A stretch of DNA of 34,475 bases from positions 1 to 34,475 of IMG/VR virus record IMGVR_UViG_3300031730_000016. One strand, given 5' to 3'. The stretch's first letter is position 1. Each line of letters begins with the position of its first letter. The DNA comes from a virus. The notes beneath the pieces were generated by a model. The model was not told the origin of the DNA. It searched no databases and worked only from the letters and a program-made list of their open reading frames with translations. Below, piece after piece: positions 11,136-14,875 of the stretch. The translations under genes and the position numbers were made by a program.

Positions 11136-11232
11136 TTGGTTGCGTGATATTTGGAGCCGAATAAAAGGAAGGGGAAAAATTTTAGACTCCAGATCAAGGT
11201 TGGTTGAGCGAGATGAAGTTTCTGGAGATTAA
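11125..11232 (+). CDS. Micro-protein (35 aa) bridging two genes
   Basis: The start (ATGATG at 11125/11128) overlaps the end of the previous gene, and the stop TAA at 11230-11232 lies one base before the ATG at 11234. The peptide begins MMINWLRDIWSRIKGRG and is basic and amphipathic. Tight overlap on both sides suggests translation, either for its own product or to carry ribosomes into the 11234 gene. No family is known. Confidence 0.38.
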   Translation: MMINWLRDIWSRIKGRGKILDSRSRLVERDEVSGD

Positions 11233-11233
11233 C

Positions 11234-11701
11234 ATGAGCAAATTAAATTCTGTTACGGAAGAAGATGGTTACTGGGTTGTTGATAAGTTTGGAAACAACA
11301 GAGTAAACTATGACGTTCTTATTTTAGAAAATGATATACCTTTTTTGCCAGAACTTATAAAAAGATATAAAAGTATAGATGCAGCTATTTTAATGTATAG
11401 AATGTTTTGTTTGATAGACTCCAATAAAGCGGTCATAAGAAAAGATGGATTTTATTGGTATTCAGCTTCTTATGAAGATCTCAGAGATCAGTTTCCATGG
11501 ATAACATTGAATAATATAAAAATTGCCATGAAGCTTTTGGTTAAAATAAAAGTTTTGGTGTCAGAATCTGTTAAAAATACACAAGGGAAGACAAAATGGT
11601 ATCGCATGTTTTACCCCTCTGATTTAGAATCACTACACCCTATTTTTAAAAAAGAAAAACCATCATCTAATAATGTTATAAATTTTATTTTAAAGAGATA
11701 G
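11234..11701 (+). CDS. Winged-helix replication protein-like (155 aa)
   Basis: I start this at ATG 11234, because GGAG lies 6 bases before it; upstream in-frame starts are weaker. The product has one winged-helix unit: AAILMYRMFCLI (helix 1), a W-Y-S strand, YEDLRDQFPWITLNNIKIAMKLLVKIKVL (recognition helices) and TKWYRMFYP (wing). This is the same layout as each N-terminal unit of the initiator at 13541 (for example LSDDQLKNILIWLEGNN followed by KWYSI). The C-terminus is short and basic. It is probably a DNA-binding helper of replication or a copy-control relative of the initiator. Only the fold is supported. Confidence 0.55.
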   Translation: MSKLNSVTEEDGYWVVDKFGNNRVNYDVLILENDIPFLPELIKRYKSIDAAILMYRMFCLIDSNKAVIRKDGFYWYSASYEDLRDQFPWITLNNIKIAMKLLVKIKVLVSESVKNTQGKTKWYRMFYPSDLESLHPIFKKEKPSSNNVINFILKR

Positions 11702-12249: not shown

Positions 12250-12975
12250 ATGGTTAAAGTATTAATAGGCGCATTTTCTGTTGTTTGTCTAGCTACTGCT
12301 AATTGTCAGCCATATGTTGGAGCAGATGGTCAAGTACGTATTATAAACTTCAAACAAGATTACGGTGGAAACGTTCTTAAGAATCATTATCCCCAGGCAA
12401 ATGTGTTTGGTGGCATAATGCTTAACCAGAATTTTGGATTTGAGGCTGGATATGAGTTTTCTAAACAACAATATTCAATAAGCGAAGATAATCCAAGAAA
12501 GGTTGTTTTAGGTAGAATTATTCGTCCTTATATTCCTCATCATATGAGAACGGTATATGACTACAGCTATTCCTCTTCTAAAATGAATGGCATAAATATA
12601 AATCTTGTTGGATTATTTCCAATACAGAAAAACATTGCATTAATTGGGTCAATCGGTCTTGCTAATTTAAAATTACAAGTAAAAAATACATTTAGACAGA
12701 CGATTATAACCGACACTGGACTTTTAGAGTTACCTATAACAGATATATATTCTGATGATGTCAATTATAATAAGAGAAAAACTGTGCTTAGATTCACCGG
12801 CGGAATTAAACTTAGGCTGAATGATTGCGTTGGTATGAGAATACTACTAAGCTGGGAAAACACTTCAAAACTCGAAGCAAAAGCAATAGATGCAATAACT
12901 AAAAGAAAAGTTCTCGGCATGGCTAAACCTAAAAATAGTTTTCAATATGGCATAGGATTATTTCTTACTCTCTAA
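12250..12975 (+). CDS. Outer-membrane beta-barrel protein (accessory, moron-like)
   Basis: This 241-residue protein has a GGAGG ribosome site. Residues 1-17 (MVKVLIGAFSVVCLATA) form a Sec signal peptide. The mature part starts with YVGADGQVRIINF and has alternating strands and turns such as ANVFGGIMLNQNFGFEAGYEFSKQ, GININLVGLFPI, LRFTGGIKLRLND and FQYGIGLFLTL. This is the pattern of an 8-strand OmpA/Lom-type barrel. It ends in Leu rather than the usual Phe. Phage-encoded barrels are known to change host surface properties, for example in serum resistance, adhesion or phage exclusion. Here the gene has its own promoter and sits between replication genes, so it is probably host-derived cargo. 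The precise effect is unknown. Confidence 0.78.
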   Translation: MVKVLIGAFSVVCLATANCQPYVGADGQVRIINFKQDYGGNVLKNHYPQANVFGGIMLNQNFGFEAGYEFSKQQYSISEDNPRKVVLGRIIRPYIPHHMRTVYDYSYSSSKMNGININLVGLFPIQKNIALIGSIGLANLKLQVKNTFRQTIITDTGLLELPITDIYSDDVNYNKRKTVLRFTGGIKLRLNDCVGMRILLSWENTSKLEAKAIDAITKRKVLGMAKPKNSFQYGIGLFLTL

Positions 12976-13278: not shown

Positions 13279-13431
13279 AGAAAACAAACAAGTAGGTCAA
13301 AAATGAAAACAAAACCAAGGAGATTAAAAATGTAATTTAACAATCTGCAGGACCATTTTAATAACGTAATTTAACCTTATCTTAGGAATGTTTTCACTAT
13401 GCTAGTCCCGGTTTTAAAGGAGAAATAACAT

Positions 13432-13548
13432 ATGCGATATGATAACAAATACAACAGAAAAGTCAATAGTAATTTTCAGTTTCATTTTATCGAATATAAT
13501 TTAAGCCTACTAACTTCATTCACTTGCGAGGGATTTGCGCGTGTCTAA
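13432..13548 (+). CDS. Leader-like small ORF (38 aa) overlapping the initiator start
   Basis: A very good ribosome site (AAAGGAG, 9 bases before the ATG) precedes this 38-residue ORF, which begins MRYDNKYNRKVNSNFQFHF. Its stop at 13546-13548 lies 5-7 bases past the GTG start of the initiator gene, in another frame. This arrangement is typical of translational coupling, where the short ORF sets the level of initiator synthesis. Such leaders control several plasmid Rep genes. Upstream (13332-13375) is a 10-base direct repeat, GTAATTTAAC, spaced 34 bases apart. Confidence 0.5.
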   Translation: MRYDNKYNRKVNSNFQFHFIEYNLSLLTSFTCEGFARV

Positions 13549-14875
13549 ACTTTTAATTAATGAGCCTTATATTCCAGTTTCTGTTGCATTGATGTTGAAA
13601 ATTAAGCCATCTCGGGCAATTGTTCTGCAGAAACTTTATTCTTTAACCATTATAAAGAATAATTACTTAGCCGACTTCCAGGATTGGAATGGATTAATCC
13701 CTTACTTAAGCGATGATCAATTAAAAAATATTCTTATTTGGCTTGAGGGTAATAATCTTATAATTTCAAAAAGCGAAAAAGGTAAGCGTGGTAAATGGTA
13801 TTCAATTAACTTAAAGGGTATAACTGAATTTGGACTTGAGGTTATTGAAGATTATATATTTCCAATGAGTCGTAAAAATAAGAAGAAGTCATTTATTTTA
13901 CCATCATTAGTTAAGTTAGTTGGGATACCATCTGCAATAATTATCCAAGACTTTTATTTTAATAATGGAATTGCGTTTTATCAGATGAAGCATAAAAAAA
14001 TTATTAATGAATTTATTTATTTCAAAAGCAGACGACAAATAGAAATTATTTTTCAGGATTTACAAAATAGAGATATATTTAAATCTGAGTTACGTGATGA
14101 TTCTAATAAAAATGAAGGAAAATTTTATGCAGTTAACAAACGAAATATATATGCATTATTAGGGGTTTGTTTTACAGAATATGTTGAAAACGAACAGAAT
14201 GAAGCTAGGTCAGAGCCTGTGGATAAGTCCTTGATTGTGGATAACTTTAACAATCAAAACCGAATTTCAGCGGGACTAAAACCGAATTTCAGCGGGACTA
14301 AAACCGAATTTCAGCGGGACTACTCTATAGATCAAGATCAAGAAAGATCTTTAAAGAAAACAATACTAATACCTTGGGGCGCAGACAAAGGTTGTGGTAT
14401 AATACCAACCATGAAAGATAATATTGTTTCTTTAAAAGAAAGATTGATGACTTTTAAAATTAATTCTATCGAGTCTGACGATTTATTGACTAAATTTTCT
14501 ATCTCAAGAATTGAAGAAGTTTTAGATGCAGCTTTCAAAAAAGAAAAGAAAGATGGTAAACAAATTTTCCGTGGTTGGATTATTAAAGCTCTTCAGCTGG
14601 GATGGAACCTGAAAGAAAAATCTAAGGAGGTCAAAGTGATAATACATACTAAGCCAGAAGATTCACTTTACAGGCGTGAGCTTGAAGTAAAAACAAAAAT
14701 TGCGAAAGAAAAAATTTATTCGGTTAAGCGTTCTGCTGAAGATGTTGAAAAACATTACATGGACATGATTCGAGGAATGCTTCGTGTTTCTTCTTCGAAG
14801 CCAGAATCAAATCGAGAATTCGCTAAACGTATCGCCCCCAATGTTTTAGAGATATACTCAAGATCTGAGGCTTAA
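13541..14875 (+). CDS. Replication initiator protein with two winged-helix domains and internal origin
   Basis: The likely start is GTG 13541 (GAGGG 8 bases upstream), giving 444 residues. Two winged-helix units are visible. The first is at about residues 10-95 (PSRAIVLQKLYSL, LSDDQLKNILIWLEGNN, KRGKWYSIN). The second is at about 115-205 (SRRQIEIIFQDLQNRDIF, then GKFYAVNK). This double arrangement is the fold of iteron-binding Rep proteins. Residues near 225-262 are encoded by DnaA boxes and iterons and form a disordered linker. The C-terminal 150 residues include FRGWIIKALQLGWNL, a helix resembling Rep C-termini, and a basic tail that could contact host helicase or its loader. No polymerase or helicase gene is present, so it must recruit host machinery, as lambda O does. 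The family name is uncertain; the initiator role is well supported by the origin inside it. Confidence 0.74.
   Translation: MSKLLINEPYIPVSVALMLKIKPSRAIVLQKLYSLTIIKNNYLADFQDWNGLIPYLSDDQLKNILIWLEGNNLIISKSEKGKRGKWYSINLKGITEFGLEVIEDYIFPMSRKNKKKSFILPSLVKLVGIPSAIIIQDFYFNNGIAFYQMKHKKIINEFIYFKSRRQIEIIFQDLQNRDIFKSELRDDSNKNEGKFYAVNKRNIYALLGVCFTEYVENEQNEARSEPVDKSLIVDNFNNQNRISAGLKPNFSGTKTEFQRDYSIDQDQERSLKKTILIPWGADKGCGIIPTMKDNIVSLKERLMTFKINSIESDDLLTKFSISRIEEVLDAAFKKEKKDGKQIFRGWIIKALQLGWNLKEKSKEVKVIIHTKPEDSLYRRELEVKTKIAKEKIYSVKRSAEDVEKHYMDMIRGMLRVSSSKPESNREFAKRIAPNVLEIYSRSEA
14218..14244. promoter_or_regulatory. Two perfect DnaA boxes (origin element)
   Basis: TGTGGATAA, the complement of the DnaA consensus TTATCCACA, occurs at 14218-14226 and again at 14236-14244. 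They are in the same orientation, 18 bases start to start. They lie 11 bases before the iterons. Two exact 9-mers this close together are very unlikely by chance and point to host DnaA binding at the origin. Confidence 0.83.
14256..14321. repeat. Three perfect 22-bp tandem iterons (replication origin)
   Basis: The unit runs from AAAACCG through the core AATTTCAGCGGGACT. Copies lie at 14256-14277, 14278-14299 and 14300-14321, with no mismatch. At 22 bases each repeat sits on the same face of the helix (about two turns). An AT-rich stretch follows (14325-14375), suited to strand opening. The array lies within the initiator gene, like the lambda origin within gene O. Confidence 0.87.

Follow-up and report, generated by a model that had tools for sequence, protein, structure and literature searches.

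Origin-like elements inside the initiator gene of a P22-like phage

Does the cluster of DnaA boxes and short direct repeats inside the initiator gene of this phage serve as its replication origin, and how would replication start in a phage that has no recognisable helicase or helicase loader of its own? The window, i.e. the whole stretch of DNA that was analysed, comprises positions 1 to 34,475 (34,475 nucleotides) of the IMG/VR record IMGVR_UViG_3300031730_000016. Since the first and last 127 bases of the record are identical, forming an exact end repeat, we take it to be a closed genome of ~34.35 kb. Moreover, because a small terminase, a large terminase and a P22-type portal are encoded in it, it is assigned to a P22-like podophage; its virion gene set is full. 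Relatives, designated by L numbers, were reached via the terminase and RecT genes. The features of the locus are as follows.

13432–13548, plus strand: 38-codon leader open reading frame that runs into the start of rep; also recognised in L004 and L006
13541–14875, plus strand: initiator (rep) gene, GTG start (alternative TTG at 13535); open frame, match to PHROG 6493
13541–13870, plus strand: winged helix 1; family HMM domain (E 6e-10), AlphaFold2 model
13871–14179, plus strand: winged helix 2, internal duplicate of winged helix 1; hhalign against winged helix 1, family HMM domain (E 1.7e-6)
14159–14416, plus strand: predicted disordered linker (residues 209–294) holding the putative origin; pLDDT 21–29 over most of it
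14218–14226, minus strand: DnaA box 1, TTATCCACA, exact match; kept in L004, boxes also in L006/L007
14236–14244, minus strand: DnaA box 2, TTATCCACA, exact match; 18-bp spacing identical in L004
14256–14277: iteron 1, AAAACCGAATTTCAGCGGGACT (tandem-repeat analysis)
14278–14299: iteron 2, perfect copy (tandem-repeat analysis)
14300–14321: iteron 3, perfect copy (tandem-repeat analysis)
14323–14410: conserved 88-bp block, three GATC (14330, 14336, 14346), then AT-rich; of equal length and almost unchanged in L004 and L006
14345–14376: conserved DNA in a shifted frame; 31/32 bases identical to L006, peptides RSLKKTILIP versus IFKENNTNIL
14411–14602, plus strand: helical C-terminal domain (residues 293–356); model pLDDT ~60–77, medium confidence

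The two exact DnaA 9-mers reported in the initial annotation are indeed present in the same orientation, 18 bp apart, and read TGTGGATAA on the plus strand (TTATCCACA on the minus strand). The same holds for the three perfect 22-bp tandem repeats (14256–14321, 100% identical), which begin 11 bases past box 2. It is assumed that host DnaA reads TTATCCACA. In the whole genome the exact sequence occurs at these two boxes only, with 0.47 occurrences expected by simulation, and a same-strand pair within 30 bp arose in 0/300 Markov simulations; a chance origin of the box pair is excluded. The iteron array is the top-scoring tandem repeat of the window (134 versus 67 for the next), and a whole-genome scan detected no second iteron array or DnaA-box cluster.

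The AT-rich stretch that had also been claimed past the iterons exists but is modest: ~5% of the genome is at least as rich in A and T, and so is the DNA that precedes the boxes. In the 88-bp block three GATC motifs are crowded within 20 bp, and the block as a whole (14323–14410) is the probable opening element. Over the whole window GATC is scarce, with 49 observed versus ~104 expected, as if it were counter-selected outside the putative origin. Finally, a change of GC skew near ~14.25 kb had been suggested as a check. Cumulative skew over the whole window shows no turn there, and it is of little informative value, since the genes run almost all in one direction.

The surroundings of rep contain further elements. 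At 13403–13416, within a ~34-bp insertion relative to L006, lies TAGTCCCGGTTTTA, which corresponds to the reverse complement of the iteron with its middle missing and both ends joined directly. It is a possible operator for rep autoregulation; we did not use this half-iteron as evidence, because L004 and L006 have no equivalent for their own iterons. The leader reading frame, judging from its overlap with the rep start, may be coupled to rep. A free-standing winged-helix protein of 165 aa (11204–11701, plus strand) belongs to the family of the initiator DNA-binding domains (HMM E 1.4e-12) and lacks a C-terminal domain; it was not detected at the loci of L004 and L006/L007 and is possibly a copy-control or competing regulator. 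Beside the replication gene lies a gene for an outer-membrane beta-barrel protein (OMP_b-brl, E 6e-11; 12250–12975, plus strand), which L004 and L006/L007 retain with ~42–44% identity.

The initiator contains a duplicated winged helix

The initiator gene is 444–446 codons long, its frame being open from 13535/13541 to 14875. GTG at 13541 is the likelier start, because L004 has no TTG at the position of the alternative. The initial annotation had described the gene as encoding a double winged-helix protein, and three analyses bear this out. The two halves match one another in hhalign (probability 95%, E 2.5e-8), both are recognised by an HMM built on a single-winged-helix phage initiator family, and two winged helices can be seen in the AlphaFold2 model. 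As the mean confidence of the model is low (pLDDT 54.5), we used it for domain boundaries alone. The boxes and iterons fall in the part of rep that codes for the linker, a position in which DNA could serve as an origin at little cost to the protein.

The protein matches PHROG 6493, named 'DnaD-like helicase loader' (E 1.5e-5; 1.2e-15 for the L006 initiator), and PHROGs tie it remotely to DnaD-like and O-like sets. In Pfam, no family matched the window initiator at E<=1, Phage_rep_O, Rep_3 and RepA_N included. A PDB sequence search returned weak, irrelevant matches, and Foldseek with the rep model recovered generic multi-winged-helix proteins only. It is possible, going by the model, that the helical C-terminal domain is a DnaD-like loading or contact domain; DnaD gave a weak fold match, with doubtful overlap.

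Layout and DNA are conserved where the repeat sequence is not

Comparison with relatives supports the annotation of the site as an origin, the boxes, repeats and GATC block all being conserved in L004 and L006/L007. L004, whose Rep is 55% identical, has two boxes at a spacing of 18 bp and 3 x 22 bp repeats of AAAGTCGCAAAAGATCGGGACT. L006/L007, at 34% Rep identity, carry three boxes together with 2.8 x 23 bp repeats of GATCATTTCTGCCACCCAGTTGA. The repeat sequences of the window, L004 and L006/L007 are unrelated, the layout and the place in the gene are alike, and the 88-bp GATC/AT block is near-identical across the window, L004 and L006. L004 has an additional partial iteron copy ahead of its DnaA boxes (L004:5636–5657), and the window has no such copy. 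Rep and its alignment matched no relative among genome contigs, named phages and plasmids gave nothing nearer than weak N-terminal matches, and the exact iteron had no match in viral contigs. The GATC-block pattern recovered known relatives only, plus chance matches without boxes.

At residues shared with L004, codons are identical at 46/50 positions (92%) in the origin stretch versus 118/183 (64%) elsewhere (p 9e-5); the corresponding test against L006 was not significant (p 0.36). Over 14345–14376, where the DNA is almost unchanged, there is no peptide similarity with L006, since the frame differs. As read from these alignments, both codon and shifted-frame conservation demonstrate a constraint that acts on the origin stretch at the level of DNA.

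Could the array and the boxes instead be features of the peptide, with the DNA pattern as a by-product? Every box is in the same frame and reads Val-Asp-Asn or Val-Asp-Lys (VDN/VDK) in the window, L004, L006, L010, L012 and L024, which speaks for this explanation; its valine is always GTG, a codon that makes up 11.5% of the valine codons of the window phage, and this constant choice counts in favour of an origin. The frame of the iterons contradicts a peptide-level reading: because 22 bp is not a whole number of codons, the three identical copies encode three different peptides, and only the set of three restores the reading frame. Furthermore, relatives have repeats of unrelated sequence, the codons are more conserved than the residues would require, and the linker is predicted to be disordered. 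We consider a peptide-level explanation barely credible.

Repeats and boxes might also form a regulatory site, for autorepression or titration of the initiator and DnaA, with replication starting elsewhere. P1-type control iterons exist and provide a precedent, and the fused iteron ends TAGTCCCGGTTTTA, 132 bp ahead of rep, would fit a protein that may bind regulatory sites too. Against this, the genome has no other iteron array or box cluster, the neighbouring GATC block keeps its DNA sequence although its reading frame has shifted, and the proven or likely origins of lambda, P22 and L lie at the same position (PMC8022706). We regard a purely regulatory role as improbable, if less so than a peptide-level one.

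The binding domain and the iterons also appear to vary together. The initiators of L045, L046 and L064 combine unrelated N-terminal domains and iterons with a similar tail or C-terminal domain; in L045/L046 the similar tail lies around YPTTAAQEE..YRKEKQLRAQEEA. This suggests that binding domain and origin are exchanged as one module.

Iterons are ordinary and DnaA boxes unusual among related initiators

A wider winged-helix search yielded 426 relatives, P22-type gp18 proteins among them, and we analysed 43 non-redundant genes among the 80 matches listed. Tandem repeats were found in 34/43 of these single-winged-helix initiators, among the matches listed; they are mostly 21–24 bp long, lie right after the winged helix and are often palindromic. 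An exact DnaA box inside the gene, in contrast, was found in 0/43. Iterons inside the initiator gene are ordinary in this family, and the DnaA boxes are the unusual variant. In the literature we searched, which excluded most subscription journals, we found no published description of DnaA boxes beside iterons in a phage initiator gene.

Iteron symmetry differs as well. Compared with shuffled units, the window iteron has no dyad (p 0.92), nor do those of the other two double-winged-helix initiators (p 0.24 and 0.95), whereas the iterons of most single-winged-helix relatives show one. Three double-winged-helix iterons enter this contrast, and a dyad is missing in L012 and L046 too. Together, the duplicated winged helix and the non-palindromic iterons suggest monomer binding to direct repeats.

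Boxed phages lack detectable helicase and loader genes

We searched whole records for DnaB_C, IstB/DnaC, VapE-like, lambda P and AAA_25 families, applying the family cut-offs (L019, a near-copy of L014, was searched with all but lambda P, VapE and AAA_25). No helicase or loader family was detected among the scanned ORFs of the window, and none of the families searched exceeded its cut-off in any of the 11 near-complete records of boxed phages (0/11). A helicase or loader was detected in 24/29 box-less records (Fisher p 2e-6), and within the terminase clade the figures are 0/11 for boxed phages versus 3/3 for box-less ones with a known initiator (Fisher p 0.003); both tests treat records as independent, and the 11 boxed records represent ~8 distinct initiator types with shared ancestry. 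DnaB_C and IstB exceeded the cut-off in 0/23 terminase-clade records, versus 13 and 9 of 27 box-less initiator phages.

The three box-less terminase-clade phages with a helicase or loader are L025 (lambda P, which was also detected in L227), Pseudoalteromonas phage H6/1 and Vibrio phage 1.182.O. The terminases of the latter two are ~50% identical to that of the window, and both phages carry intragenic 22-bp repeats without an exact DnaA box, with a DnaB-like helicase adjoining. L066, also of the terminase clade, is a counterexample that has no boxes and in which no loader was detected either, and L133, L161, L176 and L187 are likewise box-less yet without a detected loader; an HMM search could miss a diverged loader. 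No phage-encoded DnaA gene was found in the 16 relatives searched. From this distribution, the boxes apparently stand in for the helicase-loading gene carried by related phages.

The origin could also be real and the boxes only modulate it, with DnaA as an architectural or transcriptional helper and the initiator C-terminal domain loading the host helicase. This would agree with the name of the PHROG family, with pSK41 Rep, whose C-terminal domain is DnaD-like and whose origin has no known DnaA boxes (PMC5703833), and with the finding that plasmid origins do not need the DnaA ATPase domain (PMC5043065). The PHROG match, however, spans the winged helix and not the C-terminal domain. Moreover, most box-less relatives encode DnaB, a DnaC-like protein or lambda P all the same, and the initiator alone therefore seems insufficient in them. 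We regard modulating boxes as unlikely, while giving them more weight than a regulatory site.

A proposed plasmid-like start at a lambda-like place

We favour, with a probability of about 0.72, a theta origin of a circularising phage, in the linker-coding part of rep, that would be opened by the initiator and host DnaA, with DnaA supplying helicase loading. The initiator, probably a monomer engaging both winged helices as iteron-plasmid initiators do, would bind the three direct repeats of 22 bp, and host DnaA would occupy the two boxes beside them. Jointly, they would open the GATC/AT-rich block just downstream. DnaA, perhaps with the initiator C-terminal domain, would then recruit the host helicase DnaB, given that neither a helicase nor a loader is recognisable among the phage genes. 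Monomer-type iterons, boxes and a missing loader together suggest a DnaA-assisted start of the plasmid type.

A broader proposal remains tentative, and we hold it somewhat less probable than its opposite: in this environmental P22-like clade, the boxes would have replaced the helicase or loader gene, and the duplicated winged helix would have shifted recognition from dimer and palindrome to monomer and direct repeat. If so, origin sequence and gene content would be exchangeable answers to one step. Across phages, a DNA feature, the DnaA boxes, is tied here to a missing gene, which offers a simple, testable rule for how a phage obtains the host replicative helicase. Related initiators with matched, fast-changing binding sites offer a natural series for recognition studies, and the pattern is of practical use in locating origins in uncultivated phages.

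Comparison with known systems

The site had been described as a hybrid of lambda placement and P1/pSC101 parts. This description survives comparison, except that intragenic iterons are common (34/43 among the matches listed) and the boxes are the oddity.

Lambda, P22 and phage L have differing iterons inside their initiator genes, where their proven or likely origins lie, and the latter two also have a gene for a DnaB-type helicase (PMC8022706). The window resembles lambda O, P22 gp18 and L gp18 in that iterons lie mid-gene and their sequence differs between related phages. In lambda, however, O dimers bind iterons that are inverted repeats, with the phage proteins O and P taking the place of DnaA (PMC5043065), whereas the window iterons are non-palindromic and accompanied by DnaA boxes. 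It further differs from all three in its duplicated winged helix and in having no detected helicase or loader.

In iteron plasmids, initiator monomers bind iterons arranged as direct repeats, and DnaA sites are present (PMC5043065), the DnaA ATPase domain is dispensable (PMC5043065), and the initiator has two winged helices and depends on the host helicase (PMC4980987, PMC5043065). With P1, F, RK2 and pSC101 the window shares iterons of ~20 bp in direct orientation, DnaA boxes beside them and two winged helices. Unlike theirs, its origin is intragenic and sits in a phage, there is no Rep_3 match, and its two winged helices are a duplication of a phage domain rather than a Rep_3-type initiator.

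In pSK41, of the RepA_N plasmids, the origin lies mid-gene, where rep codes for the linker, and Rep has an N-terminal winged helix and a DnaD-like C-terminal domain; pSK41-type plasmids have no known DnaA boxes, and in pPR9 the N-terminal domain was exchanged together with the origin (PMC5703833). The origin in the rep linker and the N-terminal winged helix are shared with the window, the exchange of domain and origin being a further parallel; the window differs in its DnaA boxes, its second winged helix and the absence of a RepA_N match. As proposed here, the phage origin would be an intermediate between two textbook systems, lambda O and the iteron plasmids.
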